Source of the DNA: Phymorhynchus buccinoides
Taxonomy: Eukaryota; Mollusca; Gastropoda; Neogastropoda; Raphitomidae
Assembly: GCA_017654935.2 (NCBI GenBank)
Contig: CM065703.1
Coordinates: forward strand, 45,759,627-45,823,626
Length of the DNA: 64,000 nucleotides
Direction: 5' to 3'
Under the pieces are notes generated by a model that was given only the letters and a program-made list of their open reading frames with translations, was not told where the DNA came from and searched no databases. Every line of letters starts with the position of its first letter. Position 1 is the stretch's first letter. The position numbers and the translations under genes were made by a program. Of this stretch, positions 14,448-59,175 are shown piece after piece.

Positions 14448-14520
14448 CAGCACAGATTCAAAGATGCGGGGTTTGAGATTCTGGGATGCGTAGCGTGTGT
14501 AGAGACTGAGGTCTTTTTTG

Positions 14521-14616
14521 TCAGCCGACCCTGAAGAGCTGTCCGGAGAAACAGCGCTGTGCCCGCTGTATGATGCTGCAGGCCATCTGACCCACTGTGA
14601 CCACTGGGCTCTGCTT
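14521..14616 (-). CDS. CRPPA: CRPPA exon 9 (terminal coding exon)
   Basis: 96 nt including TGA, acceptor TTTGCACAG at 14617. Encodes [20 protein letters not shown] and [11 protein letters not shown], equivalent to the vertebrate end in which the chain closes with Gly-Gln-Leu-Leu. The 3' UTR extends towards 14400; no polyadenylation site is certain. Confidence 0.87.
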   Translation of the reverse strand, partial: KQSPVVTVGQMACSIIQRAQRCFSGQLFRVG

Positions 14617-17600
14617 CTGTGCAAAACAGACAGAGACAAACAAAAGGCAGTTAGAATAAACAATGCTGCAGGTCATCTGACCCACTGGGCTCTGCTTCTG
14701 TGTTAAAAAAGCACACACACACAAAACCATCATGGTTGGAAGACGCTACAGCTATGTTTCACTAAGTTTGTTAGAATGAAAATGAACCCTTCCTACGCAA
14801 AACATTTCCAGTTTCAAACTCATCTGTTTAGTTTTACATCACACATACCAAAATACAATTTTTGCAACAATTTGGCAAGCACATTTTTTTTTTACAAGTG
14901 AAAAACAGTTCTAAAGCAAATAGCTTGCTGACAGGGGCCTATTTGTAGTGCTTTTCTTTTTCTTTTTCAATTCTTAATCTTCTATAATTCTAAGCTCTGG
15001 CACAAGAAAAAAAAAAAGATTGTGTTATAAAAAACGGTCACACACGTAATGTTCTCATCCCTAGCTGGTGCATTTGTACCATAGTTTTTAAGTGCTTCGG
15101 CTTTTCGGATGATCCCTGGAGTCTTTAAGCCAGGGTACAACAACAACAACAAACGTCATGACATCATATTGCCCGTAGCAGACACGGAGTTGGCATGGAA
15201 GGGGTTAACCACACTTACCGTAGCTAGAAAGTCATACATTAGTACCCCTCTCTCCCCAGACTCTTTGGACAAAGAGAGTAGTGCCCGGGATACACCCACA
15301 CTTTTAACCATACACCACACTTACTGTTGTCATCACACCTTAGATCTGCAAAGAAAGCAGTGCCCGGGATACATCTACACTATTAACAATACACCACACT
15401 CAGTTACTTACCGAAGCAAGTATGCCATAGACCATCACCCCTCTCTCCCCATACTCTCTGCTCAAGGAGAGTAGTGCCCGGGATACATCTACACTATTAA
15501 CAATACACCACTCAGTTACTTACTGAAGCAAGTACACCATAGACCATCACCCCTCTCTCCCCATACTCTGCTCAAAGAGAGTAGTGCCCGGGATACACCC
15601 ACACTTTTAACCATACACCACACTTACTGTTGTCATCACACCTTAGATCTGCAAAGAAAGCAGTGCCCGGGATACATCTACACTATTAACAATACACCAC
15701 ACTCAGTTACTTACCGAAGCAAGTATGCCATAGACCATCACCCCTCTCTCCCCATACTCTCTGCTCAAAGAGAGTAGTGCCCGGGATACATCTACACTAT
15801 TAACAATACACCACACTCAGTTACTTACCGAAGCAAGTATGCCATAGACCATCACCCCTCTCTCCCCATACTCTCTGCTCAAAGAGAGCAGTGCCCGGGA
15901 TACATCTACACTATTAACAATACACCACTCATGTTACTTACCGAAGCAAGTATGCCATAGACCATCACCCCTCTCTCCCCATACTCTCTGCTCAAAGAGA
16001 GTAGTGCCCGGGATACATCTACACTATTAACAAGTAGTGCCCGGGATACACCACTCTCATGTTACTTACCGAAGCAAGTATGCCATAGACCATCACCCCT
16101 CTCTCCCCATACTCTCTGCTGAAAGAGAGTAGTGCCCGGGATACATCTACACTATTAACAATACACCACTCATGTTACTTACCGAAGCAAGTATGCCATA
16201 GACCATCACCCCTCTCTCCCCATACTCTCTGCTCAAGGAAAGCAAGGCACCGGACAGTTCACCATGAAGCCTTATCATCCTCTCCTCATCCTCCTCCCCT
16301 GCACCCACCACAAACACGTGAACAAACGCGTAGTCCACCAGACGACGTTGACGACAACTCCATGATTCGGCAAACTGGTTCTGCACCGTAGCCAGTTTCT
16401 CTTTCAGACCATGCGTCCCACTGTTCAGGGAATTATCCGAAGCCTCTGTCTTTCCTTTGCCATCATTGTCGGTGTTGCCACGATCACTTTCCCGGCACCA
16501 GTCGCTGTCTACACAGTCTGTTGATTCGCGCCCAAAATTCTTGGCGTCGCCACCATCTAATTTTAGGCGCGAATCATCGTCTGAAGGGGTTGCGGTGTAG
16601 GAGGTGGCTTTGTGGGGAGGGAGGGGTTCGCAGGTAGTGGTGTGAAGGGGGAGGGGGTGGGGATGCAGGATGATAAAGGTGTTGGCATCATCATCGTTGT
16701 TTGAAGGAACTGGGGCGTGGTCTCCTCCTCCGGCTGCAGCGTCTGTTGGGTTGAAAGGTTCCACAACCTGAGGGAAACAACGACAACAACAAAAGACAAA
16801 AAATGCTAATTATAAGAATTTTTGTCTTGTTCATTTCTGAAGGCTACTCTCAGACTTTCCAATTTTGTCAGAAAAACAACTGTAAATAAAACAGGTTGAT
16901 ATGACATGCAGGCACAAACATGCGGACAAACAACATTAAATAAAACAGGTTGATATGACATGCAGGCGCAAACATGCGGACAAACAACAGTAAATAAAAC
17001 AGGTTGATATGACATGCAGGCGCAAACATGCGGACAAACAACAGTAAATAAAACAGGTTGATATGACATGCAGGCGCAAACATGCGGACAAACAACAGTA
17101 AATAAAACAGGTTGATATGACATGCAGGCGCAAACATGCGGACAAACAACTGTAAATAAAACAGGTTGATATGACATGCAGGCGCAAACATGCGGACAAA
17201 CAACAGTAAATAAAACAGGTTGATATGACATGCAGGCGCAAACATGCGGACAAACAACAGTAAATAAAACAGGTTGATATGACATGCACAAACATGCGGA
17301 CAAACAACAGTAAATAAAACAGGTTGATATGACATGCAGGCGCAAACATGCGGACAAACAACAGTAAATAAAACAGGTTGATATGACATGCAGGCGCAAA
17401 CATGCGGACAAACAACAGTAAATAAAACAGGTTGATATGACATGCAGGCGCAAACATGCGGACAAACAACAGTAAATAAAACAGGTTGATATGACATGCA
17501 GGCACAAACATGCGGACAAACAACAGTAAATAAAACAGGTTTATACGACATGCAGGCGCAAACATGCGGACAAACATATGCACAATCTCGGACAGCTTGA

Positions 17601-20600
17601 TGTAAAAAAAAAAGAAAAGAAGCAATATTCTTTGCTTATTCAGTGTTCCATCATGAAATAAAATTTCACACACACACACAGTGACACACATACAGTGACA
17701 CACACACACACACAGTGACACACACACATAGTGACACACACACACATAGTGACATACACACACACACATAATGACACACACTGTGTGTGACATACACACA
17801 CAGTGACACACACACAGTAACATACACACACACACAGTGACACACGCACACACACACACAGTGACACACACACAGTGACATACACACACACACACAGTGA
17901 CATACACACACACACACAGTGACATACACACACACACAGTGACATACACACACACACACATACACAGTGACACACACACAAGAATGCAAGTGAAATAATG
18001 AAAAAAGAGCTCTTAGCTTAGTCCTTTCTTGTCAATAAAAATCAGTTTGACTTGACACACACACATTTGTCCCAAAATCACTTCTTCCATTAATCATCCG
18101 CCTTCATCCATTTGAAGATTCTGATGATATAATAGAACTGAGGAGGGTTCTGCGCATGTTAGGATACAGTCAATTAGGGTTAATCAGTGTCAATTCCAGG
18201 GTATGAGTCTCAGTTTGGTAGGGAAGGGAGTGGGGGGAGGGGGACACTGGAGAGATGGAGTGGGGGGGGGGGGGGGGACTGGGGGTTGAAGGGGAGGAAG
18301 CACTAATGTGAATAAACATTAAATTGAAGAACACACACACCTTGATCTGTAAGGCGCGGAGTTCAGCACAAATGGCGTCAGCCAACCAAGGCCAGCATTC
18401 CTTGTTCACTATGCTCACTCTGGTCCACTGCTCTGTACAAAGAAAACAATCAGTATTAAAGCAGTACAAAGAAAACAAGCAGTACAAAAACAATCAATAT
18501 TAAAGCAGGTCAAAGAAAACAATCAATATTAAAGCAGTACAAAGAAAACAATCAATATTAAAGCAGGTCAAAGAAAACAATCAATATTAAAGCAGGTCAA
18601 AGAAAACAATCAGTATTAAAGCAGGTCAAAGAAAACAATCAATATTAAAGCAGGTCAAAGAAAACAATCAATATTAAAGCAGGTCAAAGAAAACAATATT
18701 AAAGCAGGTCAAAGAAAACAATCAATATTAAAGCAGTCAAAGAAAACAATCAATATTAAAGCAGGTCAAAGAAAACAACAATATTAAAGCAGGTCAAAGA
18801 AAACAATCAATATTAAAGCAGGTCAAAGAAAACAATCAATATTAAAGCAGGTCAAAGAAAACAATATTAAAGCAGGTCAAAGAAAACAATCAATATTAAA
18901 GCAGGCAAAGCAGCAGTCAAAGAAAACAATCAATATTAAAGCAGGTCAAAGAAAACAATCAATATTAAAGCAGGTCAAAGAAAACATCAGTATTAAAGCA
19001 GTACAAAGAAAACAATCAATATTAAAGCAGTACAAAGAAAACAAGCAGGTCAAAGAAAACAATCAATATTAAAGCAGTACAAAGAAAACAATCAGTATTA
19101 AAGCAGGTCAAAGAAAACAATCAATATTAAAGCAGTACAAAGAAAACAATCAATATTAAAGCAGGTCAAAGAAAACAATCAATATTAAAGCAGGTCAAAG
19201 AAAACAATCAATATTAAAGCAGTACAAAGAAAGCAATCAGTATTAAAGACATCACACTTATTAAAAAAAAAATTAAAAAAAGGATTCCCAACCCCACTAT
19301 TCCTTTCTTGACACAAAATATACAAGTTCAAGAAGGCTTACTAACAACTTACTTCAGCAATGTTTTATTAACATTCGCATTTGTTGCAGACAAAACGTCT
19401 TCTAGTGTTCCGATACTTTCACACATTTTCGGGAAAATCTGTCTTTTGAAGCACACAGAGCGCCATACAGTTACTATCACATCACCGCAAGTGAGAAGCT
19501 TCTTCATGGTGTGTGTATAACAAGCCAGAACTTAGTGCGTGATGGAAATGCCATCAGAGGGGGTCTCAGAGTGGGGGCAAGGTATGGGCGGTTTGGGGCT
19601 GCTTGAATACACAGAGGCAACTTCCGGCTGGGCGCTTTTGGGCGGAATAAATGCAAGAGGGTTAATCCTTAATGAATATTTATCTGCACTGATATAAAGT
19701 TTGCTATGACTTGACGTGACTTGAACGTACTTGTAACTTAACTGACCTTTCAGCATGGCTTCAGCAGCAAACAAATCCTTTTTGTACGTCACCTGAAACA
19801 TTAGAAATGAGACTAGTATTTGGTATTGGTATTTGGTATATTCTAGTCACAACAGACTTATTTCTGTGAAATTCGGGCTGCTCTTCCCCGGAGAGCGCGT
19901 CTCCACAAGTGCAGCGCCTACCCAATTTTTAAAAAAAATTGGGGGGGGGGGGGGGGGAGAGGGGCACACTTGGAAAACCTAGCTATCAATCTGGCCATAC
20001 CAGGCAGTGGGATTTCTCCCTGCTCTTACCGACTTTCAACTGCCATGGGATTTCTACATGCGTAAAGCGCACGGGTCAGACTAGCTTTAAGTCCCCATCC
20101 GAAGGACTCGACGTTCAGTTTGATTTTCCTGTCGAACTAGAAAGAAAGGGCGAGGCCGGAATTCAAACCCGGGTCACTCACGCTGCAGTCACGCATTACA
20201 TTTGGCAGGCGAACGTCTTAACCACTCTGCCACCTTTCTCCCTTGTCACTATGCTATACCAGTCATTAGCCATAAACAAACATTTTGAAGCAATCACAAT
20301 CAACAAGTAGGATGAATCCATCATTTCCACACACTAGCACTGCAAATCACATTAGATAATTAAAAACTATAGATAATAGATTGCAGACTTCTGGGAGGGA
20401 AAAAATGTTGTTTTAAAATCATGCTAATTGGAAGAGTTCAATCCTTTATAGGACTGAATTTTAAAAATAATATTGTCTTTTTTTTTTAAATCTTGGTTAC
20501 ATCCCCCTGATAATGAGTTATCTCGCGTAGTCAACATTGAAAATTATAACAAATGTGTTTGTTCTCCATTCATTTTCCTTCAATAAAACATATACCATTA

Positions 20601-23600
20601 TAATCTTTACAGTATCATTTCATTTTTAAAGAATTAAATAGTGAGGCCAAGAGAGGAGATGACGAAATTGAACAAAGGGTAATTACTCTCTTTTTCTAAT
20701 TAACTCCCCTCCACCAAAGTTGATTAAGATACCTACCTTCCAGAGGTCAGGCCTTCCGTCCAGAACACGAGCCTTCAGTCCTCCATGCTTCATGGCCATT
20801 TAATTTTTAGTTATTTTTTTAAAAGTTAGGTATCTCACTCGCTAAAAATACAAATAGTTACGGGAGTGAAAGGGTTAACTCATTCGCATCGCAACGATTT
20901 TGAATTATTAATAAAAACCTAACAAATCACGCCAGCCATACATACAAACAAAACAGACATAAACAAAAGGATAAATGAAAGAAGATTACAGGTTTTTACT
21001 TCAGGTTTAGACGTAGGTAAGTGGTAGATCAGACTCTTTTAAATATAGACTTTATATAGAAATACTCTCTACACCGATTGGTTTACCCACAACGAACCAC
21101 TACAAAAGCAAAGTCAGGGGCAAAATTGTGGTCTAAATGAGTGAAGCCAGTTTAGAAGTGACCAAGGTATGGTGTGCACACATATTTACTTCCCTTGAAG
21201 CAAATGCATCAAATTGACAGCTATTAATTCTGGACATATATGGCCGGAACGACTTGAATGAGTTAACCCTTTCACCGCATAAGTCGCATTTTAGCACCAC
21301 AGTGATTTAACACCTATGTCACTAAAAGGCATCAAATTGGGGTCCATTGTCCAAAGACCCTATTGTCTTAGTTTTGGGAAGTAAGGATAGACCTTATGGT
21401 TATATAATTATGTCACAGAAGAATCCCCAATACTGCAGATGGATTTTGTTCTCTACCCAGGTACATTTAATGGAACATTTTGGCTGAAATATGGCTGGCA
21501 GTGAAAGGGTTAAGCCAACACATCAGCAGAAGTGATGACCTTTTTGTCCCTACCTTCCAGAGGTCAGGCCTTCCATCCAGAACACGAGCCTTCACACCTC
21601 CATGCTTCATGGCCAGCAGAAGACACTCTGTGCCAAAGTCCAGGTCATCAGCAGTGCACTGTCACACAGAACGTGAAGATGCCTTCATTTCAACTAGTGC
21701 ATCACTTAAAACAGACTGATCACACATCATAGGGCAAATGCCTTGACTGTACTGTACAAGAGAAGACACTCTTCACAAAGAAGTGAAAATTCTGAGCACC
21801 AAAAAACACACACAAAAAACGCACTTATCATAACACAAAACCACGATAACTACATTTACGTCCCCCCCCCCCCCCCCCCCACTCTCAACTAGAATCCAAA
21901 CCATTACAAATAATGTTTTCCACGCAAAAGGCATTTTCTCACACTACCCTCCCCCGCATTCACCATCGCCCCTTCATAGACCTCAGGCTGACCTACTTTT
22001 TATAGATCTCCCAGCACGCAAAAATGCATGCACACACACCACACATGTGCAGAGCAGAAGACACTTCCAATCTCAGCTTTTTCATTCCTGATTCCAGGAG
22101 CACTCCTGAGCAGCTTTCTCAACAACAACAAAAGGTACCCTAGTTTTCAGACTATAAGGTGCACCCCCACAAAGCTCACATTTTGTTATTATATTTTCTT
22201 ACTACAGTGGAATCCGTTTAACTGGCCATCGGATCATCGGCCAAAGCCGCTTAATCGGCCAATTTCCTCTGGAACGGAATTTTTTCTTCTTAAGCATGTG
22301 TTATTTTGTTCGTTTTTACGGCCAAAGCTGAAATCTTCAATTTCGCTTTATTGGCCACTTTTTCTCTCTAATTTTGGCTCTTTACCCCTTTTTGAGAGGG
22401 AGAACAACAGAGGCAGACAAACTGACAACACGCTTTTGACGTTTCCATGGTTGAGTGTGAAGTTGGAAGGTGAGCTGTTGTCAATTGAAAGACCCTGCAT
22501 GGCGTTAAAATCACTCAAGAAAACAAAATCATTGTCTTTTACTCGTGCTTCTGTCAAGTTGTAGGATAATAAACACACACATAACAAAAAGGGAAAGAAT
22601 TTGAACTGCAACATTTAATTTTGACGTCATTGCTTTTGACTTGCATAATTGCGTCATACAGTATCTCGATGTTCGTTTTATCGGCCGATTTGCTTTATCG
22701 GCCATATTCTTCCTGGTCCCAAAAGTGGCCGATTAAGCGGATTCCACTGTATATGATCAATCCTAAGTTATAAGGCGCAGTCTCAATAATAGTCAGACAA
22801 ATACAGTACAGTAAAACCTCCCTTATAAGACCTTCAAAAATCATCCAAAGGAGTATTATAATGGGAGGTCTTATAAGGGAGTTCCACTGTGTAAGGCGCA
22901 CCCCCAAAATTTTACACAAAGCTAACATTTTGTTATTATATTTTCTTACTATATGATCAATCCTAAATGATAAGGCGCAGGGGTCTCAATCTGTCTCAAT
23001 AATAGTCAGACAAATACAGTGCTTACCTTGCTATAAGCGTTGGCAATCACGTCCACCTGGAAGGCCTGTGGCATCTCGCTGTTGACGTAACGGCTTCGGT
23101 CCAACGATTCGCTCAGCCTCTGCTCCGCGTCGCGAGCTATCACCGTGGAAACCAACGGTCGACACACGCCCGCTGCCTGAGCAAGAAAAAATAAAACTAA
23201 AAACAGTGATTGGTTAGTTTCCACGCTGTGAAAAAGTAAAAACACGTCTGTACTATGACAAAATGTTTTGATGACCTGAGGTCTGAAATGGGAGTTTTAT
23301 ACGGGTTGTTCGCGACACGCAAGGGCGCTAAATTTATGCAGAGATGCATCTAGAAATTTCTGAATTGGGGGGCATTGCCCCCCTTTGTGTGGGAATTTGG
23401 GGGGATCTGGAAATTATTAGGTGTTTTTTTAAATCAATGCCACGGAACTACATATTGGAAGAAAATAATTTGACAACCTGTTGTGAATGAATTTTTCTTT
23501 TTGCTTTGTAAGCACCAGCCACGAAACACTCGCTGTCAAACTGTAGCCAAGGTCTGCTTTTTTTCCAACTTTCCATGAACTCATGCTTTCGCTTTTTGGA

Positions 23601-26600
23601 AGGTGGTGGAGCGACACTACTAGTACTGGGGTCGTCAGTGACATCACATTCCTGACCCGATGCTTTGTCATTCGATGAACTTTCCTCGTTGTCACAATTT
23701 ACATCACTAACTGCCGATGATGAACAAGGTTGTTGATCATCATTACACTCCGCACTGTTTCCTTTCTTTTTAGAAGTCACAGTAAAATAGTTCAGAAGCG
23801 ACGCCATTTTCAGGCGGGCCGGTACTGCGCCTGGTACTGGTAAATGAAAGAGAAAGCCGTTGATTGGCTAGATTATTTATAAGACCCAATCAAAATGCTC
23901 GTTGTTTGCTGAAGACAATTTATTCGAGAAAAAACTTGATTGGTTTATAAGGAATCGAAATGCAGACGCAGAACGACCACGCAATCTGAATATTAATTAG
24001 TTTGAGTTATTTTTAAACGCATTTTCGTTTGCGGGATTTCACAAAATTTTGGGGGATTTTCCCGCAGCATATTCTTGTTTTTGCGGGAACATAAACAATT
24101 TTGAGGCAATGCTGCGCTCTAGATGCATCATTGCTTATGTATAGGTGGCTCACATGAGTCAGTATCTTGAGTCTATTATTAGCTTAGTGGTCGGGGCAGA
24201 TTCTTCTTCTTCTTCTGCGTTCCCAGACCATATGGCCATAATGGATAAGGTACGTATGTGTCCGTTTTTTTGTTTTCACTGGTCTCCCCGCTGCTTACAG
24301 CCGACACATTCCGATTTTGGAGGAACTCAAAGGAGAAAAACTATTTGGAAGATATTTTTTTTAAAGGGCAGGAGAATGGACCAATAAGTCAGAAAGATAG
24401 TAGATGATAGAAAGCAAAAGGAAAAGGCAGTCAAGGAGAGTGGCAGAATAGAGGAAGTTACAAGCACAGAACTTCCAGACGGTGGGGGAACTATTTTTAT
24501 GAAAGACACCCTGGTATCCCCACGGGGAGAGACTCGTGGAGGGGGTATGGTCGTCCAGCTCCCCGTATGGAGGCACGAGGCATCCACCCACTGCCCCAAG
24601 GGGCAGATAATTTTCAGAGGCTTCGTACTGTTTCTTCATGATGTGCTAGGGCGATGATTGCATGATTCAGTATCACGAGTCAGGGACAGAGAATTTTATA
24701 ATAATAATAATAATAATAATTAGCATCCATAGCACCTGATCTTAAAAAAGCCCTAAGCGCTTACAATAATAAATGAATAAACCAGCAAGCAATATAAATA
24801 AATAAACATCAAAAATATATTATACACACACACACATACACGAACGCACTACATAAACACACACACACACAAACAACATGAAGGCACACAAACACATGCG
24901 GATGGAAGGGGCACAGTATTTTGAAAAGAAATATAGCAGGCTATGATTTGAAGAGAGTAGTTTTGAGAGAAGACTTAAATCAAAGACTGTATAGGGGAAG
25001 ATAAGCATCCGGTCTCTTTTCCCTATATGAGTAGTGAGGACAGAAACACTGGTTATGTCCCTTTTAAACAGGACACATTTTACACGTCGATAGGCCAGTT
25101 GAATTCTCCGTTCAAGGTCCAGTCTGAGTTTTTGGATAGCCTCCACTGTGAATAGTGTACTGTCTGCACTAACGATAACTCTATCAGCCCGGTTAGCCGA
25201 GCTCTTAAGTAGTCCATCTTACCCTTTTAGAATATCTTTGCTTAAATGAAGAAAGGGAGTTGGCAGAAAGGAGAGGTAAAGGGAGGGTCTTGGATCACAT
25301 GAGAAGGGTAAATGTTCAAAGGCGTTCATTCCATTCATCACAATTCCCTCATTATCTTACTGGACTGATACTTTACATTAAATCCATGCATTTATGACTT
25401 TAGTTAAAAGATTGAAAGCCTTACCCCATGCAGGTGTGCTGCCGATGCCACGTCCTTCACAACTTCAGGGGAGACAAACGGGCGAACGGCATCATGAATC
25501 AACACCACCTCAATGCTGGGAGATACTGAAACAATGAACTATAAATGAATATTGTGTTAAAGAAAAATCGCATGTTTATCATCCCATTAAACAAATAATG
25601 TTCTTCATCATGCCAGGGGAGACAAACGGACGAACGACAACGTGAATGAGCTTTACGGTAATGCGCTATATACGTCTCCTAAATAAATAAATCAACACCA
25701 CCTCAATGAATGGAGATACTGTCACTGAAACATTGAACAATACATGAACCACACTGTGTTAAAGAAAAGTACAACACGATTATTACTAATCACTTTCCAT
25801 AAATTTATAATGTCCTTCAGTATGTCAGGGGAGACAAACGGACGAACGGCATTGTGACTCAACAACACCTCAATGCTGGGACTCGCAGTGGGAGACACTG
25901 AAACATTGGCAAATTAAATAAACCTTAACCCTTTCACCACCAATGTCGCATTTATGCACCACAATGGTTTAACACCCATGTTACTAAAATGCATCAAAAC
26001 AGATCCTGTTATCTGAAGACCCTATTTTCTTAAGTTAGGGACGCAAGGATAGGCCTAATGTTATACATGTCATACAGGAATTTCCAGTATTGCAGATACT
26101 TTTCTTCTTTACCCAGTTAAGTTTAATGGCATTTTTTGGCTGAAAAATGGCTGGCGGCGAAAGGGTTAATAACTTAACATAGGAAAGCATATTTTAATAA
26201 TCAATTTATACTAGTAAAGTCCTTCAGTATGGCAGGGGAGACAAATGGACAAACAGATTTGAGAATAATCATCACCTCAATGACAGGAGACACTGAAACA
26301 TTGAACAATAAATAAACCACATTGTGCTACAGAAAAATACAACACTATCATTACTAATCACTTTCCATAAATTTATAATATCCTTCAGTATGTCAGGGGA
26401 GACAAACGGACGAACAGCATCGTGAATCAACACCACCTCAATGCTGGGAGACACTGTCACATTGGCAAATTAAATAAACCTTAATAAATTAACATAGGAA
26501 AGCATATCTTAATAATCAATTTATACTAATATAGTAATAATGTCCTTCAGTATGTCAGTGGAGATAAACGGACGAACAGCATCGTGACTCAACACCACCT

Positions 26601-29600
26601 CAATGCCCGGAGACACTAACAAATTAAATAAACCTTAATGGAACCCCTTGACTGCCGTACAACGCATCACGTACTGATGTGACACATCACTGATGACGTC
26701 ATCAGATGAAGAGGAATAACTCTGATATGCTGGCTTTTGCTCTAACACAGACAAGAGAGTTATATCCCCAGACCATTTTGCCACATTGGTTCCTCTATCA
26801 GTTGTCTTTTTCATGGCATGATTTGTACAATGATTTTTTTAAAATAATTTTCTCTCACAGTCAAGGGGTTAATACATTGACATAGAAAAACAAAAAGCAT
26901 ATCTTAGTAATCAATTTATACTAATAATGTCCATCAGTAAGGCAGGGGAGGCAAACGGACAAACAGCATCGTGAATAATCATCACCTCAATGACAGGAGA
27001 CACTGAAACAATGAACAATAAATAAGCCACATTGTGTTAAAGAAAAATACAACACTATTAAAGAAAAAAGTATTATTAATAATCACTTTTCATAAATTAA
27101 TGTCCTTCACAATGCCAGGGGGAAGAAAGGGATGGACAGCATCGTGAATCATCACATCTTCTTCTGCGTTCCCAGCTATATGGCCATAGTGGGTGAGGTA
27201 CATTTTCAGTCCAGTTTTCACTGGTCTCCCTGCTGCATTCAGCCAACACATTATGCTTTAGAAGGAGCTCAAAGGAGTTCTAACATTATTTCGAAGACTT
27301 TTTATTTTAGAGGCAGGAGAATGGGCCAAGGCAGAAAGATAGTAGATGACAGTAAGCAAAAGAAAAACGCAGCTCTAGGCAAAGACTACAGGAAGTTGCT
27401 AGCACAGAACTTCTAGAAGGTGGGGGAACTATTTTTACAAAAGACCTCCTCCGGAATCCTCACAGGGAGAGACTTGTGTAGGGTGGGGTCATCCAGCTCC
27501 CCGAATGGAGGCACGAGGCATCCACCCACTGCTAGATATGAAACTGTTCATCTCAATAATAAAAAACTAACTGATAATGAGGTCGAAAATGTTGCGACGT
27601 GTAAAGGAATGTTATCCAAACACTGATTATTACATATTTACGCAAAGTTTAATACCTTGTTGCAACGCTTTGATCCCAGCGTATATCGAGCGATGGCGTG
27701 TGCTCCCTCCCTCCACCACGGTCACTTTGTTAAAGCCATAGCGATTGGTCAGTTCTCTCAGCCGCTCTGTGTGCTCCTTACTGGTGGAAATTACGATGTC
27801 TTGCACCAAGGGATGCCTGCCAAAAACACACAAACAAAAAAACAACACTAATCAATATCAGCTAACTTGTAGTTTACACATCCCCATCTCCTCCTAAATT
27901 GGAATGTGTCGGCTGAATGCAGCAAAGAGACCAGCAAAAACTGAAAACTGGACCCATACGTACCTCACCCATTATGGTCATATGGCCTGGGAACGCAGAA
28001 GAAGAAGAAGAAGAAGACACCCCCTTGTCACATTTTCACATTGAAAATTTTCGCACAGAAGCAATACATTACAATTTACAGTGGAACCTCCCTTATCAGA
28101 CCTTCAAAAATCATCCAAAATGAGGTCTTGTAAGGGAGGTAATTTTAATACTTACAAAGGGCAATGTCTCGGAGAAGTAGGTCTTACGTGGGAGGGAGTC
28201 TTATAATGGGAGGTCTTATAAGGGAGGTTCCACTGTATTGGGAAAGGGATAGGCTTAGGATTAGCCTATGGTTACTGTTCAAGAGAGAGACGCAGACTTT
28301 GAGATTGAGAGTTGTAAACATGAAGGGGGTGTCTAAACTACCACTCTGCCTCATTATCTGAAAAAAAAATCACCATGTTGCACTGAACAATAAATTGCCA
28401 AACGTCACCCTGCAAGTGCAAGCATTCACTTAGGCCCACTAACGAGCAACTTAAAGCTATCGTGTAATTTTAGACAACCCATCCACACACTCAGATACTT
28501 GCACAGAAAATATATTATATTCATTGTGAAGCAACATTCTCCCCATTTGGAGAAAATGATAGGGGAAGGATCAGCCCAGGATTACTTTCATAATTTACCA
28601 GAAAGTAGCAGACTTAGAAGCTCATAAGCATGAGGGGGGGTAAACTACGACATTGCCTAACTGAATTCAGCACTGTAACTCCTGGAGGGAGAAAGGTGGC
28701 AGAGTGGTTAAGACGTTCGCCTGCCAAATGTAATGCATGACTGCAGCGCGAGTGACACGGGTTTGAATCCCGGCCCCATCCTTTCTTTCTAGTTCGACAG
28801 GAAAATCGAAATGAACGTCGAGTCCTTCGGATGGGGACTTAAAGCTAGTTGTCTGACCCGTGCACTTTACACACGTAAAAATGCCACGGCAGTTGAAACC
28901 TGGTAAGGGCAGGGAGAAATCCTGCTGCCTGGTAAAAGTGGTAACATTGTTATTGATAGCTAGGTTTCCATAGTCTGCCCACATCCCCTCCGTACCCTGC
29001 AAGGAAGCTCCTCACCCACTTGTTGACCTGGCCTCTGAAACCGTAGTGACTGGACAAGTACTCAGTTTAAGAAGAGAGTGGGACATGATTTTATGCCGTG
29101 CCACAACATAATTTCTCTTTATAGTCTTGACACCTTGTCGAAGGCCTTGGAGAAGTCCATGACAAGAGTGTTAGTTCCCTTACCCAAGGCAAACCTTTGC
29201 TTGAAGTTGAACTAATTGAAAAGGTGGGCAAGATGAAGCCTGAAGCTGAAGGTCTCTATTCCGGTATATTATATATAGCCTTCAAAGGCTCCTACAACAT
29301 ATATGATCCAGTTCCAGTTGCGTCTATCCTCAGAAGACTGAGAAGTGGCGTCTGCGACATATTATTTCTACCAGATCCACTCATCCAGATCCCCAAATTT
29401 CTTAGATCAACTTCATGCAGGAACTGAGGAAGTGACAGAAATTATCCTTCTTCTTCTTCTTCTGTGGTGGTGGCCAGCTTCTTTTTATAGAAGTAAATGC
29501 ACACACTTTAGGGGGTGACCAAAGAAAAAGAAGCTGCAGAAGAGGAGAAAAGAAAACGATGAAGAGAAACTTAGACAAAAATCAGCTAGCCCGACAAGGC

Positions 29601-29809
29601 CTAATTAACGACTAGAAGTAAAATTTGAAGTCGAACCTTTGAAAGCATTCTATTGTGAAGCAGATAAGAGGCCGTCCGTTCACTTCACAAAATTGTTTGG
29701 GCGTTTGCAGCTTCATTCTTTCTCCGCATCCTGCTGCAGGCAGCACAACACCAACTTTGAACGGGACAAAATTATCGTCTGCTTGCATTGTTTCTGTCGT
29801 CTGTCGCAT
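14521..29809 (-). CDS. CRPPA: CRPPA/ISPD: D-ribitol-5-phosphate cytidylyltransferase, 9 coding exons (gene span)
   Basis: Makes CDP-ribitol from ribitol-5-phosphate and CTP, the donor used by FKTN and FKRP to build the matriglycan core on alpha-dystroglycan; cytosolic. Coding exons (minus): 29809-29637, 27816-27656, 25525-25425, 23176-23027, 21658-21554, 19792-19747, 18432-18341, 16767-16183, 14616-14521. All joins are GT-AG and keep phase, giving about 502 aa (human about 451). Residues 1-260 are the IspD-like nucleotidyltransferase: [12 protein letters not shown] (21-32), GGSTRHRSI (94-102), LIHDAVRPF (120-128), EMPQAF in exon 4 and [12 protein letters not shown] in exon 5. The rest is the CRPPA-specific C-terminal domain, with a lineage-specific low-complexity insertion in exon 8. 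The start is the first in-frame ATG after the head-to-head promoter; a second Met is at residue 8. Introns carry many exon-fragment duplications. Confidence 0.93.
14654..14705 (-). pseudogene. Duplicated 5' half of CRPPA exon 9 with its acceptor
   Basis: About 45 bp upstream of the real exon (in transcript direction) repeat the acceptor and the first codons, reading [13 protein letters not shown], with a 9-bp loss relative to the real exon. It then runs into unrelated sequence, so it has no stop or exon end of its own. Confidence 0.82.
15190..16182 (-). repeat. Tandem array of CRPPA exon 8 end plus splice donor, about 112-bp unit, 7 extra copies
   Basis: Each unit repeats, on the minus strand, the exon 8 tail (AGAGAGTATGGGGAGAG to CTTGCTTCG), the donor GTAAGTAAC and about 40 bp of intron ending GGGATACATC or its complement. 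Donor copies lie near 15219, 15411, 15529, 15711, 15826, 15941 and 16069. The 15219 and 15529 copies are degenerate. Confidence 0.92.
16183..16767 (-). CDS. CRPPA: CRPPA exon 8 with lineage-specific insertion
   Basis: 585 nt (195 codons), acceptor TTTCCCTCAG at 16768, donor GTAAGT at 16182. The 5' part (ANTFIIL) and 3' part ([15 protein letters not shown], then [15 protein letters not shown]) align with the vertebrate C-terminal domain. About 95 residues between them, rich in Pro, His, Asp, Ser and Thr, have no counterpart that I recall. Its last 80 bp and donor are tandemly repeated downstream. Confidence 0.88.
16868..17575 (-). repeat. 54-bp minisatellite, 13 copies, in CRPPA intron 7
   Basis: Unit contains AATAAAACAGGTTGATATG and ACATGCAGGCGCAAACATGC. 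It lies about 100 bp upstream of the exon 8 acceptor. Because 54 is divisible by three, minus-strand frames stay open over 200-340 codons with an 18-residue period. No conserved domain and strong copy identity argue for non-coding satellite. Confidence 0.95.
17668..17980. repeat. (CA)n with GTGACA interruptions
   Basis: Compound CACACA / GTGACACACA repeat in CRPPA intron 7. The long open minus frame across it is a repeat artefact. Confidence 0.95.
18341..18432 (-). CDS. CRPPA: CRPPA exon 7
   Basis: 92 nt, acceptor TTGTACAG at 18433, donor GTGTGT at 18340. Encodes [20 protein letters not shown] and [10 protein letters not shown], the start of the CRPPA C-terminal domain. Less conserved than exons 1-5; support comes from phase continuity and the helix pattern. 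The acceptor is the last unit of a 29-bp minisatellite. Confidence 0.82.
18433..19250 (-). repeat. 29-bp minisatellite abutting the CRPPA exon 7 acceptor, about 28 copies
   Basis: Unit is GTCAAAGAAAACAATCAATATTAAAGCAG-like (variant GTACAAAG). On the minus strand each unit reads TTAATATTGATTGTTTTCTT, an AT-rich branch-like word plus polypyrimidine tract. The unit next to the exon supplies the tract of the real acceptor. Confidence 0.92.
19747..19792 (-). CDS. CRPPA: CRPPA exon 6
   Basis: 46 nt, acceptor GTTTCAG at 19793, donor GTCAGT at 19746. Encodes [15 protein letters not shown], matching the VTYKRDLYAAE block at the end of the cytidylyltransferase domain. Confidence 0.9.
19930..20247 (-). 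mobile_element. tRNA-derived SINE, copy 1
   Basis: Reading minus from 20247: GGTGGCAGAGTGGTTAAGAC (A-box) and, about 70 bp later, GGGTTTGAATTCC (B-box), then a tRNA-unrelated body ending near a G-rich tract. Homologous over about 270 bp to 28686-28985. Located in CRPPA intron 5. Confidence 0.87.
20735..20803 (-). pseudogene. Duplicated 3' half of CRPPA exon 5 with its donor
   Basis: About 66 bp match the 3' part of exon 5 (21550-21616) with four or so differences, including the TGGAAG|GTAGGT donor, here closer to consensus than in the parent exon. No acceptor or 5' exon half. The two copies are separated by three TTAA-bounded MITE units (20858-21513). Confidence 0.85.
20858..21513. mobile_element. 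Three abutting TTAA-bounded MITE units
   Basis: 20858-20878 is the right end (AGTGAAAGGGTTAA) of a family A piggyBac-like MITE. 20875-21266 is a different element with CTCATTCGCATCG and TTGAATGAG ends. 21263-21513 is a complete family A copy (CCCTTTCACCGC ... GCAGTGAAAGGG). Neighbours share the TTAA tetranucleotides at 20875 and 21263. Confidence 0.85.
21554..21658 (-). CDS. CRPPA: CRPPA exon 5
   Basis: 105 nt (35 codons, as I recall the human exon), acceptor GTGACAG at 21659, donor GTAGGG at 21553. Encodes [20 protein letters not shown] through DGRPDLWK. A copy of the 3' half plus donor lies downstream at 20735-20803. Confidence 0.93.
22137..22800. mobile_element. ACTATAAGGCGCA-type MITE split by a Tigger-like element
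   Basis: Starts AGTTTTCAGACTATAAGG and ends AATAGTCAGACAAATACAG. This is the same family as 44045-44235, 50480-50715 and 51552-52135, whose best ends read TACCGTATTTTTCGGACTAT. At 22203 it is broken by a 545-bp element. Confidence 0.75.
22205..22749. mobile_element. pogo/Tigger-like non-autonomous element, 545 bp
   Basis: TA duplication at both ends; termini CAGTGGAATCCGTTTAACTG and, in reverse complement from the right, CAGTGGAATCCGCTTAATCG. Further CGGCCAA words repeat inside. No transposase frame. Confidence 0.82.
22809..22889. mobile_element. CAGTGGAACCTCCC MITE, copy 2
   Basis: 81-bp shortened copy, termini CAGTAAAACCTCCC and GGGAGTTCCACTG, in CRPPA intron 4. Confidence 0.8.
22890..23020. 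mobile_element. ACTATAAGGCGCA-type MITE fragment ending at the CRPPA exon 4 donor
   Basis: AAGGCGCACCCCCAAAATTT through GTCAGACAAATACAG, the same sequence as the right part of 22137-22800. It ends about six to seven bases from the exon 4 splice donor at 23026. Confidence 0.75.
23027..23176 (-). CDS. CRPPA: CRPPA exon 4
   Basis: 150 nt, exactly 50 codons, acceptor TTGCTCAG at 23177, donor GTAAGC at 23026. Encodes [12 protein letters not shown] through [23 protein letters not shown] terminus begins about 7 bp inside the intron. Confidence 0.93.
23342..24128 (-). mobile_element. DNA transposon remnant with transposase N-terminus
   Basis: Inverted ends ATGCATCTAGA (23344) and TCTAGATGCAT (24118). 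On the minus strand a frame at 23807-23448 starts [15 protein letters not shown], passes an acidic Ser-rich linker and reaches [20 protein letters not shown]. That order (basic N-terminus, linker, then the FxxSWxxxxPWLxxD opening of a TTF/BED-like zinc finger) is typical of hAT-related transposases. It ends in a stop; no catalytic domain remains. Located in CRPPA intron 3. Superfamily assignment is an inference. Confidence 0.6.
24204..24612 (-). mobile_element. (GAA)n-tailed SINE-like repeat, near-full copy
   Basis: In sense (minus) orientation the element starts near CCCGTGGGGATACC, runs through AGTTCCCCCACC and CTTGTAACTTCCTC, and ends GGCCATATGG...GGAACGCAGAAGAAGAAG, that is, a microsatellite tail. 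Related copies: 27149-27535, 36531-36872, 37730-37853, 41222-41505, 45486-46075, 52380-52875 (all minus), 48225-48530 and 59195-59405 (plus), and 5'- or 3'-only pieces at 27900-28020, 31000-31100 and 60857-60972. Confidence 0.8.
24692..24770 (-). mobile_element. (ATT)n-tailed short interspersed repeat, reverse orientation
   Basis: AATAATAATAAT tract, then TAGCACCTGATC and CCCTAAGCGCTTACAA, matching the family at 14375 and 45776. A CA microsatellite follows at about 24822-24870. 24870-25420 is otherwise unique intron sequence. Confidence 0.6.
25425..25525 (-). CDS. CRPPA: CRPPA exon 3
   Basis: 101 nt, acceptor TTTCAG at 25526, donor GTAAGG at 25424. Encodes [20 protein letters not shown] and [13 protein letters not shown]; the HDAVRPF motif is universally conserved in IspD-type enzymes. 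This is the only copy with both splice sites; eight truncated copies lie upstream in intron 2. Confidence 0.93.
25925..26169. mobile_element. piggyBac-like MITE family A, copy 3
   Basis: TTAA at both ends, TIRs CCCTTTCACCACCA and TGGCGGCGAAAGGG. Inserted within the exon 3 duplication array. Confidence 0.85.
26636..26875. mobile_element. TTAA-bounded MITE, CCCCTTGACTG family
   Basis: Left CCCCTTGACTGCCGTAC, right CACAGTCAAGGGGTTAA. Internal sequence unlike family A. Inserted in the exon 3 array. Confidence 0.7.
27149..27535 (-). mobile_element. (GAA)n-tailed SINE-like repeat
   Basis: Shares with 24204-24612 the CCAGCTCCCCGAATGGAGG and GGCACGAGGCATCCACCC segment at the 5' (minus) end and TATGGCCATA near the tail. 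About 80 percent similar by eye. Confidence 0.75.
27656..27816 (-). CDS. CRPPA: CRPPA exon 2
   Basis: 161 nt, acceptor TTTTTGGCAG at 27817, donor GTATTA at 27655. Encodes [15 protein letters not shown] followed by [20 protein letters not shown], the IspD substrate-binding segment. Confidence 0.93.
28079..28235. mobile_element. CAGTGGAACCTCCC MITE, copy 3
   Basis: TA target duplication, complete TIRs, 157 bp. In CRPPA intron 1. Upstream, 27900-28020 holds the tail end of a (GAA)n-tailed repeat. Confidence 0.85.
28686..28985 (+). mobile_element. tRNA-derived SINE, copy 2
   Basis: GGTGGCAGAGTGGTTAAGAC (A-box, 28693) and GGGTTTGAATCCC (B-box, 28758) at the spacing of a tRNA gene. The body continues with ATGGGGACTTAAAGC and a Leu/Ser-tRNA-like head. 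The sequence does not fold into a complete tRNA, so it is a SINE rather than a tRNA gene. Confidence 0.87.
29126..29172 (-). mobile_element. Small LINE reverse transcriptase fossil
   Basis: Minus-strand frame reads [15 protein letters not shown], the first catalytic Asp motif of non-LTR reverse transcriptases. Flanking codons contain stops. Too short for a clade. The frame at 29197-29427 (plus) shows no recognisable domain. Confidence 0.55.
29637..29809 (-). CDS. CRPPA: CRPPA exon 1
   Basis: Encodes residues 1-57 plus two bases. Contains the nucleotide-binding glycine-rich [10 protein letters not shown] and the following TPKQF, diagnostic of the IspD family. The donor is AAAG|GTTCGA at 29636-29635, a weak match to consensus. 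The ATG at 29809 is the first in frame; the ATG at 29788 has a slightly better context. Confidence 0.9.
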
Positions 29810-29970
29810 CAAATTTACTTTTGCGAGTTGTTTTGTGCTCGTCCATTGGTTGTTTTCCTCTGAAATAAAGTAAATTACCTTTTGATTGGTCAATCGCAAA
29901 CCGGAAACGCTGCAAACTAGGCCTTAATCTTTTGTCTCGAGAGAACACGGTTGGTCAAACGTTTGTCAAA
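29810..29970. promoter_or_regulatory. Bidirectional promoter between CRPPA and RNF113A
   Basis: 161 bp separate the two start codons. It contains ATTGG (inverted CCAAT) at about 29845 and 29885 and CCGGAAAC, an ETS/GABP-type site, at 29901. There is no TATA box. CCAAT plus ETS sites in a short head-to-head spacer is the usual pattern of housekeeping bidirectional promoters; that these sites act here is inferred. Confidence 0.7.
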
Positions 29971-49408
<19,438 letters not shown>

Positions 49409-49836: not shown

Positions 49837-50479
49837 TGTGCGATTCACACAGATTTTGATTTCTATTGTGCAATGTGTTGATTTCTTTCTTTTCTTTTTT
49901 ACTTTTTTTTTTTCAATACCTGTTTAAATGAAACCTCGCTAAATGGTCATCTCTTTCTAAATCTGGAGGTGAATTTGCTGCTTTTGTAAGTTGTCTTTCT
50001 TGGGGGTGGGGCAGTGAATTACTCAGGTGTGTGTTTCAAGGGCACAAACAAACAAAGGGCACAAACAAAAAGCCATGTACTGTTAGAAACTTTTTTTTTG
50101 AATATTAAAAGACGGTGATTGAATATTGAGAGAGGGTGTCGGTCTGAGTTCCTTCGCGCACAGTAAAATGCAAGGCTCGGAAAGTAAATGTTCTTATTCG
50201 ATATGAAATTTTTGCGTGTCTTCTAGTATTATTATCGCCATTTTAAAATTGGTTTCCTTAGCAGTTTTAAATTTGTGTTAGTTTTATTGATTTTGTTTCA
50301 TCCGTGCGTCCATCCATCTGTGCGCGTGTCCGTCTGTGTGTGCGCGAGGGAACTTTGCACCGGCTGGAGTTAAGCCTTGTATGTAATTTGTGTTGTTGCT
50401 CGTTATTGTTAATATAAGTATTATATTATATTTTGCCATGATCTTTAAATTCATTTCCTTACAATTTGAGTGTGTTATG

Positions 50480-52875: not shown

Positions 52876-52884
52876 TGTACAAAT

Positions 52885-54700: not shown

Positions 54701-54701
54701 A

Positions 54702-55221: not shown

Positions 55222-55227
<6 letters not shown>

Positions 55228-55300
<73 letters not shown>
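55228..55300. repeat. (CT)n(CA)n microsatellite
   Basis: CT to 55258 then CA to 55297. A similar CT/CA array lies at 55525-55600; the two are flanked by copies of ATGTACATGCCTTATCAA, so the locus was duplicated. Confidence 0.94.
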
Positions 55301-55301
<1 letters not shown>

Positions 55302-55522
55302 GGCGTGACAAACACACTCACACAGAGAGGCATATGCGCGCACGCACACACACACATGTACATGCCTTATCAACGACACACAACATGTATGTACCTTGTG
55401 TGTGTGCGCGCGTGTGTTATGTTCATATTGAAAACTATGTGCTGCTGTTGTGCATGTTTTGTGTTAGTGTTCTCTTGTCATGATAGGGGCTGTTGGCCTA
55501 AGTCATTAAAATATTTCCGAGT

Positions 55523-55605
<83 letters not shown>

Positions 55606-55884
55606 CATGCCTTATCAAGGACGCACAACATGTATGTACCTTGACGTGGTTAAGGCCACTGGAATACAGCTCCGTGGTGACTGATAATGTTCTTTCTTTT
55701 CTTCCAACGAAGACACAGGCCTCCCTCCACCCATCTCTCTTCAACGTCAGATTGACCAGAGAAGGTCACTTCAGTCAGTAGAGTGGGTATTAACATTCAA
55801 CCTAGGGTTCTGTGTCCTTATTGTTTCAACAACAAGAAAACAGTAACTAAATGCTACGATTGTTCTTAAAAATTAAAACAAGAA

Positions 55885-56850: not shown

Positions 56851-56951
56851 CCTTACGCTCTAAGGGGGCCGGGCCACACCCAGGTCGTGACTCTGTATGA
56901 CCCACTAATGTACACTGCATGAATGTGAAGTTTTCAGAGACAGAAGCAGTG

Positions 56952-57057
56952 ATGAAGACGACAAAGATGATGATGTCTGTGAGAATAGTTGCTGTTTGCT
57001 GTCTGTGTATTCTGCAATTAATCGCTGGAGTTTTTGCCCGTCAACATTTAATGAAAG
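56952..57057 (+). CDS. C4-like gene exon 1 (signal peptide)
   Basis: 35 codons plus one base, donor GTGAGA at 57058. Basic start, hydrophobic core and Ala-x-Ala-like cleavage region. Confidence 0.72.
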
Positions 57058-59175
57058 GTGAGAACAGAGCTAGCAAAATAAGGCTCTGTGGGGGTGGGGG
57101 TGGGGGTGCCCGTGTGTGTGTGCGTGCGCGCGCGCGAGCGTCCACATATGTATGAGTATGTTATACATGTAGGCCTATATGTGCGTCATAAATAAACCAA
57201 CTGATTTTTTTTGGTCCTAATGGGTAACTAAGCTGTGAACTTTATACAAAGAATGCATGAAGAAGTTTACAAGTGTGTGTGTGTGTTCGGGTTTTCCACG
57301 CGTAGTTTTGACAATGTTCTGTAAATCGACATTAATTGTTTTGACACCCCACATTGTTTTGACGTCAAAACAACGGAGAAAGTGTGAAGTGCAATTGTAG
57401 TTCACGCGAACTACAACCGCGCACTTGCGCTCCAAGTCACAAGTGTACTATCCGGGCCAGAAAATATTGGTTGGATTTATGGACGGAAGAAGGGATAAAT
57501 GCATTCTTAAAATCCCCTATAGAGACAGCACTTTTTCCGTTTTTGATGGTAAAGATACTGTTTTTGCTCAAACAACGCGGGGAAACCCAGTGTGTGTGTG
57601 CGTGCGTGCGTGCGTGCGTGCGTGCGTGTGTGTGTGTGTCTGTGTGTGTGTGTGTGTGTGTGTACTGTGTGTGTGTCAGTGTGTGTGTACTGTGTGTGTG
57701 TCTTTTTGTTTCGTTTTGATTTTGTGTTGTTGTCATCGTCGTCATTTTCATTGGAAAGTGTAAGTTGTTTCTTTACATGTTTCCTTTGGTGAACACTAGG
57801 CAACACCTACACTGAGTGGGGACACCCATCTTGTCTGTGTTGTTGTCAGTGATAGATGTTGTACATTATTACATGTGATGTCTGTGTTGTTGTTATTGAT
57901 AGATGTTGTACATTATTACATGTGATGTCTGTGTTGTTGTTATTGATAGATGTTGTACATTATTACATGTGATGTCTGTGTTGTTGTTATTGATAGATGT
58001 TGTACATTATTACCTGTGATGTCTGTGTTGTTGTCAGTGATATGTATTGTGTATTATTGTGCATTACATGTCTGTGTTGTTGTTATTGATAGATGTTGTA
58101 CATTATTACATGTGATGTCTGTGTTGTTGTCATTGATATGTATTGTGTATTATTTTACATTACATGTCTGTGTTGTTGTCATTGATATGTATTGTATATT
58201 ATTGTGCATTACATGTCTGTGTTGTTGTTATTGATAGATGTTGTACATTATTACATGTGATGTCTGTGTTGTTGTCATTGATATGTATTGTATATTATTG
58301 TGCATTACATGTCTGTGTTGTTGTTATTGATAGGTATTGTATATTATCTTACATTACATGTCTGTGTTGTTGTCATTGATATGTATTGTATATTATTTTA
58401 CATTACATGTCTGTGTTGTTGTGATTGATATGTATTGTATATTATTTTGCTTTACATGTACGTCTGTGTTGTTGTCATTGATATGTATTGTATATTATTT
58501 TGCTTTACATGTACGTCTGTGTTGTTGTCATTGATATGTATTGTATATTATTTTGCTTTACATGTTTCCTTGTGGTGAACAGGCAAGACCTTCACTCAGT
58601 GGGGACACCCAACATGTCCTGAGGCAACCCAGTTTGCTTACATTGGTGAGTAGGCAGTGTAATATACATGGAATCGCACATGGAATGCATGTGTGTGTGT
58701 GTGTGTGTGTGCATGCGCGCGCGCCATGTGCATGCCTATATATATGTGTGTGTGTGCTGTGTGTGTCTGCATGCGTGCGTATGTCTGTGTGTGCCTATCC
58801 ATGCGTATGTGTGTGTATATATACGCGCGCGTGTGCGTGAGTGCATATATGTGTGCGCATGCATGCTTTCTTCTGGCAGGTTTTTCCAAAGTGGCTCAAG
58901 CCCTCCTGACAGTGGGCACCACCCAGTGCCCTGACCACTGGACGCTAGACTACCCCGGACATCTGGTCGCTTGGAGAGACCGTTATTATGACGACACGTT
59001 GTCTGACCAACTGGAGTGTGTCAATACGACACACAGCTCCAACACGCTGCGTTCCAGCCAGTACACGGGAGGAACGACACACGTGTTCTACACAAACTCT
59101 GCCTGTGGGGATCAGCGACTATGGCCGCCTTATGGAGAGAGGGGGGTGCTTAGGTGTGCCGTGTGCTGGAAGTAA
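56952..59175 (+). CDS. Short-chain collagen C4-like secreted Cys-rich protein, 3 exons (gene span)
   Basis: Exons 56952-57057, 58583-58645, 58880-59175, all GT-AG with phase 1 joins, giving about 154 aa. Residues about 1-29 form a signal peptide (MKTTKMMMSVRIVAVCCLCI then a hydrophobic LQLIAGVFA). The mature part has FTQWGHPTCPEATQFAYIG, CPDHWTLDYPGHLVAW and ends PPYGERGVLRCAVCWK. The WGxxxCP opening and the CPxxWTxxYxGxL...CAVC ending match the C-terminal region of proteins annotated as short-chain collagen C4 in sponges and molluscs. The collagen repeat and the middle part of that region (with its own CAVC motif) are absent here. Function unknown; secretion is inferred from the signal peptide. 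A further upstream in-frame ATG at 56919 would break the signal peptide pattern. Confidence 0.75.
57590..57702. repeat. (GT)n/(GTGC)n microsatellite
   Basis: Compound GTGC and GT array in intron 1 of the C4-like gene; open frames here are artefacts. Confidence 0.94.
57789..57835 (+). pseudogene. Truncated copy of C4-like exon 2
   Basis: TTTCCTTTGGTGAACACTAG then GCAACACCTACACTGAGTGG GGACACCC, homologous to the acceptor and first 28 nt of exon 2. It then merges into the minisatellite. Confidence 0.82.
57830..58570 (+). repeat. About 50-bp minisatellite between the two exon 2 copies, about 14 copies
   Basis: Unit: TGTCTGTGTTGTTGTCATTG, ATATGTATTGTATATTATTT, TGCATTACA. The last unit leads into TTTACATGTTTCCTTGTGG and the exon 2 acceptor. 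The TTTACATGTTTCCT word also precedes the truncated copy at 57770. Confidence 0.92.
58583..58645 (+). CDS. C4-like gene exon 2
   Basis: 63 nt, acceptor GTGAACAG at 58582, donor GTGAGT at 58646. Encodes KTFTQWGHPTCPEATQFAYI. A truncated earlier copy of its 5' half is at 57789-57830. Confidence 0.78.
58690..58865. repeat. (GT)n-rich microsatellite
   Basis: Interrupted GT/GC array filling most of intron 2 of the C4-like gene. Confidence 0.9.
58880..59175 (+). CDS. C4-like gene exon 3 (terminal)
   Basis: 296 nt including TAA, acceptor TTCTGGCAG at 58879. Encodes the domain with six Cys, ending CAVCWK. A (GAA)n-tailed repeat follows 20 bp after the stop. Confidence 0.85.

Follow-up and report, generated by a model that had tools for sequence, protein, structure and literature searches.

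In a 64,000-nt stretch of the genome of the neogastropod snail Phymorhynchus buccinoides (GenBank assembly GCA_017654935.2, contig CM065703.1, positions 45,759,627 to 45,823,626 of the forward strand; hereafter the window), three genes, RNF113A, CRPPA and the gene for a short C4-like protein, carry repeats that straddle exon–intron junctions and copy the splice sites along with them. Here and in other genes of the same assembly, repeat families that span a junction are several-fold more common than expected for arrays placed at random while sparing exons. We think it fairly likely that these arrays are minisatellites of the 'mirage' type described in amphioxus, and that a duplication or retention process biased toward junctions or exon edges lies behind them.

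All three genes were rebuilt exon by exon, giving 19 introns and 38 junctions. Every junction is GT-AG (38/38), and the reading frames are open to the stop codon. Local repeats, defined as direct repeats ≤3 kb apart in a dust-filtered self-BLAST, make up 31% of the window, 36% of the intron sequence and 26% of the sequence outside the three gene spans. Repeat copies lie on both sides of nine junctions (four in RNF113A, four in CRPPA and one in the C4-like gene), and a local repeat copy comes within 5 nt of 11 junctions and within 10 nt of 12. An initial annotation of this DNA had placed about a dozen of the 38 junctions in or against tandem copies, a count that holds once abutting arrays are included. 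Each junction case it named was recovered by self-BLAST and a site scan, some with corrections given below.

Three null models were applied to the placement of repeats. In the first, the repeat-covered bases are shifted circularly, which permits exons to fall inside arrays. In the second (the unit null), a single repeat unit is placed at random. In the third (the footprint null), a whole array is placed at random such that it neither contains an exon nor lies inside one. The unit null was applied to the window, then to PFDN5 and then to the CCT loci described below; the footprint null was devised later and applied to all three. Nine of 17 window families, transposable elements (TEs) aside, cross a junction, compared to 1.3 expected under the unit null and 2.5 under the footprint null (P = 1.7 × 10−4 for the latter). 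This set leaves out seven TE-like families in the genes; with these included, the fraction is 9/24, and 2.2–2.9 are expected.

Because the window was picked for its junction arrays, we tested genes outside it. The out-of-sample set comprised PFDN5, the right-flank neighbour, and five CCT loci identified by homology, with 47 repeat families in all. PFDN5, whose reading frames and match to Prefoldin led to its identification, has five exons and eight GT-AG junctions. Four of these junctions are spanned, and four of its seven families are junction-spanning; one TE pair is omitted here, and with it the fraction becomes 4/8 (P = 4 × 10−4, unit null). For CCT, Pfam profile PF00118 gave 54 matches, 23 of which were used, in five fetched loci that each held several matched exons. 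TE-like families were not filtered out at these loci, and two rows were dropped: exon 7 of stretch C33 (a copy in its own right, since it matches the same profile positions as exon 8) and the exon 8 acceptor. In the CCT loci, 17 of 43 junctions are spanned and 17 of 40 families span one. PFDN5 and CCT combined thus have 21 of 51 junctions spanned, and 21 junction-spanning families out of 47, compared to 3.0 expected under the unit null (P = 9 × 10−14) and 4.6 under the footprint null (P = 4 × 10−10), an excess of ∼4.5- to 7-fold over random placement. Under the footprint null, C33, C27, C1055 and PFDN5 are each significant alone. Array ends also fall inside CCT exons more often than expected (18/126 versus 7.5, P = 5 × 10−4). 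The spanned junctions of the window, PFDN5 and CCT (n = 30) include 14 acceptors and 16 donors.

Several points weigh against a bias toward junctions. With circular shifting there is no enrichment: 9 junctions are covered in the window versus 13.1 expected (P = 0.94), and 17 versus 14.8 in the CCT loci. For window arrays called by Tandem Repeats Finder (TRF), the footprint null gives 4/13 versus 2.2 expected (P = 0.16), and that null was itself devised after the first tests. Two of the five CCT stretches (C6 and C3518) are non-significant alone under the footprint null, two CCT stretches on 25-kb contigs may be alleles of other loci, and a simple splice-site score, rather than RNA, defined the ends of the CCT exons. 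Exon 8 of C33 lies wholly inside a merged repeat block, the single such case among the exons counted, showing that exon swallowing is rare yet present; without this exon, 20/47 families span a junction and 4.5 are expected under the footprint null (P = 2 × 10−9). Gene D, a flanking gene of three exons, has none of its five junctions spanned and one intron-only family. Finally, the sample holds only 56 junctions outside the window. With gene D included, 21 of these 56 junctions are spanned and 21 of 48 families span one; gene D and one exon of another flanking gene, which we take from its sequence to be PECR-like, are excluded from the 47 families.

Two further duplications were seen outside the window. 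In C33, an almost identical copy of a CCT exon lies upstream of it and matches the same profile positions (stretch positions 17510-17647 and 17950-18111), which may be an exon-plus-acceptor copy. Part of the last exon of the PECR-like gene recurs ahead of that exon's acceptor, just after a contig gap (flank positions 50009 and 50118). A Pfam scan of one further stretch (L007) gave no usable gene.

The initial annotation had offered two explanations, survivorship and a junction-linked mechanism, with nascent RNA structure or R-loops as examples of the latter. Under pure survivorship, duplications would arise uniformly, those sparing exons would survive, and those spanning a junction would be merely noticeable. 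In keeping with this, no exon in the window is completely covered by local repeats, and, measured as base coverage, repeats are no denser at junctions than in introns. The annotation's claim that repeats are concentrated at junctions accordingly fails when measured by coverage, and it stands if arrays must spare exons: by the annotation's own yardstick, repeat density at junctions compared to introns, the two are equal until exon-swallowing placements are barred, at which point the excess emerges. The present sample rejects uniform survivorship, which predicts 4.6 spanning families where 21 were seen (2.5 and 9 in the window). Tolerance of such duplications is necessary but insufficient, an origin at junctions or exon edges is favoured, and we regard survivorship alone as unlikely.

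Detection could also be biased, if coding constraint freezes one copy and leaves exon-containing duplications recognizable for longer. Some families are indeed old (72–87%). However, the excess persists in young TRF arrays of the out-of-sample genes (≥3 copies, ≥93% match), where 8/19 span a junction compared to 2.2 (footprint) or 1.0 (unit) expected. Junction arrays in this set are no older or more diverged than the others (median match 97 versus 96%), and we consider this source of the excess improbable.

The gene models of the window are as follows.

RNF113A, 29971-49408, forward strand: 10 coding exons, GT-AG junctions and open frame; PDB 5z56 match and homologue alignment; exons 1–5 at 29971-30082, 31582-31670, 34861-34971, 36350-36457 and 37895-38004; exons 6–10 at 42548-42654, 44524-44613, 45343-45436, 47685-47791 and 49287-49408.
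CRPPA (ISPD), 29788-14521, reverse strand: nine coding exons, GT-AG junctions; matches to PDB 4cvh and Pfam PF01128 (IspD, E = 3 × 10−47); exons 1–5 at 29637-29788, 27656-27816, 25425-25525, 23027-23176 and 21554-21658; exons 6–9 at 19747-19792, 18341-18432, 16183-16767 and 14521-14616.
C4-like short protein, 56952-59175, forward strand: three exons at 56952-57057, 58583-58645 and 58880-59175; no Pfam family matched the protein, and the C4 label comes from the initial annotation.

RNF113A carries these exon-derived repeats, all on the forward strand. Decoys are copies of the real splice site.

33340-34904: 68-bp array of 23 units, containing the intron end, the acceptor and the first 44 nt of exon 3.
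34906-35473: diverged repeat of about 132 bp, containing the exon 3 tail and donor; two close copies.
37993-39321: 100-bp array of the last 12 nt of exon 5 and its donor; 13 decoy donors.
40935-41223: detached part of the exon 5 donor array, 100 bp; 3 decoy donors.
42596-44042: 87- to 95-bp array of the exon 6 tail and donor; 15 decoy donors.
47706-47770: 65-bp internal segment of exon 9, with a copy (89% identical) at 48148-48212, 442 bp downstream.

At exon 3, the authentic acceptor belongs to the last unit, and the 22 decoy acceptors show 0–3 mismatches over 65 nt. Every third decoy (seven in total) would, if used, add in-frame multiples of 68 residues. The array as far as the exon (33340-34860) is open in all three forward frames. 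At exon 5 there are 16 decoy donors in total, three of them 1.6 kb downstream because a 1.6-kb dispersed element (39317-40939) splits the array; an inverted copy of this element, 93.5% identical, lies at 12188-13733. All 15 copies at exon 6 lack 9 nt of CCCH zinc-finger codons, including that for a zinc-binding Cys, and therefore encode a broken CCCH finger. The internal copy of exon 9 is present as the initial annotation had it, but it is not tandem and includes neither intron sequence nor a splice site.

RNF113A matches the human RNF113A chain in PDB 5z56 and aligns over its full length, at 64–85% identity, with six homologues (five from named molluscs and one transcriptome protein), the closest being those of Nucella lapillus and Babylonia areolata (both 83%), which suggests a caenogastropod host. 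In this alignment there is no insertion at the array-bearing junctions, and decoy sequence is absent from all six homologues. The start codons of RNF113A and CRPPA are 182 bp apart (29789-29970 in between); as the genes are divergent, this suggests a shared promoter.

The corresponding repeats of the other two genes are listed next.

25452-27155, reverse strand: CRPPA exon 3 acceptor and 74 nt of the exon, in three blocks of diverged copies; six copies, five with AG.
21549-21615, reverse strand: CRPPA exon 5 tail and donor, with one copy at 20732-20798 (95.5%, intact GT).
15213-16244, reverse strand: 113-bp array of the last 62 nt of CRPPA exon 8 and its donor; six decoy donors.
14573-14726, reverse strand: CRPPA exon 9 acceptor and 44 nt of the exon, with one diverged copy (75%, self-BLAST).
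58553-58618, forward strand: C4-like exon 2 acceptor and 36 nt of the exon, with a copy at 57768-57835 (85.5%, self-BLAST).

An ungapped site scan missed the acceptor copies of CRPPA exon 9 and C4-like exon 2, which were seen by self-BLAST. The junctions of CRPPA exon 5 and C4-like exon 2 are duplicated as reported, although these are two-copy duplications ∼800 bp apart rather than arrays. It is also true that the complete exon is the terminal unit, but this is forced by geometry, since a unit straddling a junction can stack only on the intron side, and hence it provides no independent evidence.

Are the arrays products of assembly? The assembly comprises 2.12 Gb in 3962 contigs, and we fetched 100 kb on each side of the window (contig C24 in our numbering). 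In this region, two pairs of long similar stretches flank 500-N gaps, with blocks near RNF113A ∼96–99% identical and others 88–95%. Given the exon identity, the high but uneven flank identity and the 500-N joins, these are probably unmerged contig overlaps that represent two haplotypes, although they may instead reflect a recent segmental duplication. The right pair duplicates RNF113A exons 2–10, the C4-like gene and part of PFDN5. Between the assembled copies there are four differences in RNF113A exons 2–10 with their 20-nt flanks, and two substitutions plus one 3-nt gap in the C4-like exons and flanks. Identical junctions carry identical array types in both copies, while the copy numbers mostly differ. 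Counts of diagnostic words (copy 1/copy 2) are 23/19 for the exon 3 acceptor, 17/14 for the exon 5 donor and 15/15 for the exon 6 donor of RNF113A, and 3/3, 13/44 and 22/4 for the 31-bp, the 49-bp and an intergenic 79-bp array. Likewise, the 58-bp array at the PFDN5 exon 4 donor has 15.6 versus 63.9 copies and the 33-bp array at the exon 5 acceptor 7.1 versus 48.1. The arrays are therefore variable-number repeats at fixed junctions. Apparent unmerged overlaps beside gaps do invite suspicion, but a second assembled copy in which matching arrays occupy these junctions, mostly in other copy numbers, speaks against the artefact that the initial annotation had allowed for, and we hold it to be very improbable.

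The claim that these genes carry dozens of decoy splice sites is right at the level of sequence. Of 67 decoys examined in the window, 60 would break the protein if used, through a frame shift or a stop. Site copies are found within 4.5 kb of all 21 spanned out-of-sample junctions (n = 89); 88 keep AG or GT and 87 are on the intron side, with the weakest (7 mismatches, 4/89) near the level at which chance gives ∼0.3 hits. That some decoys fall in a splicing-factor gene, RNF113A, was also correct, but this looks incidental, since PFDN5 and the CCT genes show the same.

Three ideas about the decoys were tried and set aside. The first was selection on decoy dinucleotides. Among diverged copies, 95/96 are intact versus 56.6 expected, but mismatches gather at the unit ends, and the mismatch rates of the dinucleotides (0.00 and 0.03) are not clearly different from those of neighbouring bases (0.07 and 0.05). 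The second was a purine-rich enhancer in the unique part of the exon, which seemed apt for RNF113A exon 3 (0.76 versus 0.07) but gave mixed results over eight exons (two for, two opposite, four showing nothing). The third was tandem exon duplication that yields mutually exclusive or alternative exons. The copies in the window have one exon edge only, and most decoys, as counted above, would break the protein if used.

Other arrays touch or approach exons without including them.

18435-19248, reverse strand: intron-only array, 29 bp, ending 2 nt before CRPPA exon 7.
16871-17576, reverse strand: intron-only array, 54 bp, in CRPPA intron 7, 103 nt from the nearest exon; 2 AG (19.9 expected).
44423-44519, forward strand: intron-only array, 31 bp × 3, stopping 4 nt short of RNF113A exon 7; free of AG.
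57832-58565, forward strand: intron-only array, 49 bp, 17 nt before C4-like exon 2; 9 AG (31.7 expected).

No AG occurs in the 814 nt of the 29-bp array, where base composition predicts 18.8, and YTNAY words resembling branch points number 71. The first AG upstream of the CRPPA exon 7 acceptor is consequently 822 nt away, whereas this distance is 11–47 nt at 16 of the 19 acceptors in the window. The other long distances, 156 and 247 nt, belong to RNF113A exon 7 and C4-like exon 2, both of them array-bearing acceptors, and the last part of the 49-bp array contains no AG. Judged by their sequence, the 29-bp units resemble a branch point plus pyrimidine tract, such that one AG may be served by ∼25 tandem modules. 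We considered whether AG avoidance is tied to acceptors. Although the three acceptor-side arrays are AG-free or AG-poor, so is the 54-bp array away from exons, and for this reason a link between AG-poverty and acceptors is not established. The 26 intron-only families with a known exon on either side show no gradient toward exons, their relative distance being uniform (Kolmogorov–Smirnov P = 0.59), so a general pull toward exons does not account for the junction excess. Within 30 nt of an exon there are four such families, three of which belong to the window, versus 0.85 expected.

These data bear on a further explanation, that junction arrays are retained by selection because extra splice signals aid splicing (for example, as reserve sites for U1 or U2AF) or act as a buffer at the exon edge. 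The near-universal conservation of AG or GT in the out-of-sample copies and the AG-poverty of the acceptor-side intron-only arrays are what this would predict. On the other hand, the dinucleotide is not clearly better kept than its neighbours, the great majority of window decoys would break the protein, and an AG-poor array also occurs away from any acceptor. We view selective retention as doubtful, if somewhat less so than survivorship. A bias in the origin of junction arrays, rather than in their retention, is most likely.

In the scheme we favour, a short segment (about 30–165 bp) straddling an exon–intron junction would duplicate in tandem, and the resulting repeat would then expand and contract as an ordinary minisatellite. 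Copies would stack on the intron side, each carrying a copy of the real splice site, and the exon would remain whole, its unique body being joined to one end of the array only. Splicing would mostly pick the copy nearest the exon body, as suggested by the need for an intact protein and by precedents in factor VII and amphioxus. We infer, too, that the assembled copies are allelic, that the authentic sites are used and that the genes sampled are representative of the genome. Duplication hotspots at exons in general would look the same here as hotspots at junctions, because selection would remove duplications lying wholly inside exons.

Mirage minisatellites have been named in the amphioxus genes Adh3, TnC and PGBD5 and the globin genes BflGb6 and BflGb9 (PMC3087553, PMC3902484). 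Their units, like those of the snail arrays, comprise an exon edge and the adjoining intron, occur at 5′ and 3′ boundaries, and present many copies of AG or GT. Unit lengths are given as 10–160 bp, and array length varies between haplotypes; in the snail, copy numbers differ between two assembled copies that are probably haplotypes. Normal splicing of the amphioxus genes was backed by reverse transcription PCR; the snail arrays are described from DNA sequence. How mirages are generated is called unclear by the amphioxus authors, who put forward a possible path to intron gain (PMC3087553). The snail case differs in coming from a mollusc, in the 21/56 junctions sampled outside the window and in a measured excess over exon-sparing placement.

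Related cases are known from three other systems. Intron 7 of human factor VII contains highly homologous 37-bp repeats downstream of the real donor, as at snail donors, and splicing normally uses just the most upstream donor (PMC6627357); that example is one human intron with a unit of 37 bp, whereas the snail has many junctions, both donors and acceptors, and units of 33–165 bp. In human segmental duplications, internal tandem repeats at exon–intron boundaries alter gene structure (PMC2812944). Recent primate paralogues carry these repeats in expanded form, and new introns can arise from them, while the snail RNF113A protein appears unchanged. Metallothionein genes of earthworms, which are also lophotrochozoans, have minisatellite introns and exon 4 duplications that are absent from the transcript (PMC12783039), with no junction-spanning arrays described in the sections seen. 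The titles and abstract openings surveyed mention no junction arrays in molluscs and no measured junction excess, though other papers, for example on cone-snail introns, may do so. The mirage kind is already known; what is new, as far as this literature goes, is the density seen here and the rejection of uniform survivorship.

These results indicate that mirages can reach a measurable density in a sample of a single animal genome, and the view that they are simply tolerated is rejected for that sample. Two questions become testable: what causes DNA to duplicate at these junctions, and how one site is chosen by the spliceosome when as many as 23 are nearly the same. Junction arrays are possible raw material for intron gain, and where they are this common they can mislead gene prediction and short-read assembly. 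A broader proposal, toward which we lean slightly less than away, is that in this caenogastropod lineage a process linked to transcription, splicing or exon chromatin directs duplication genome-wide to exon edges or junctions and continually scatters decoy splice sites into introns. If this is true, the spliceosome of these animals has to pass over numerous near-identical sites at a large share of its junctions.

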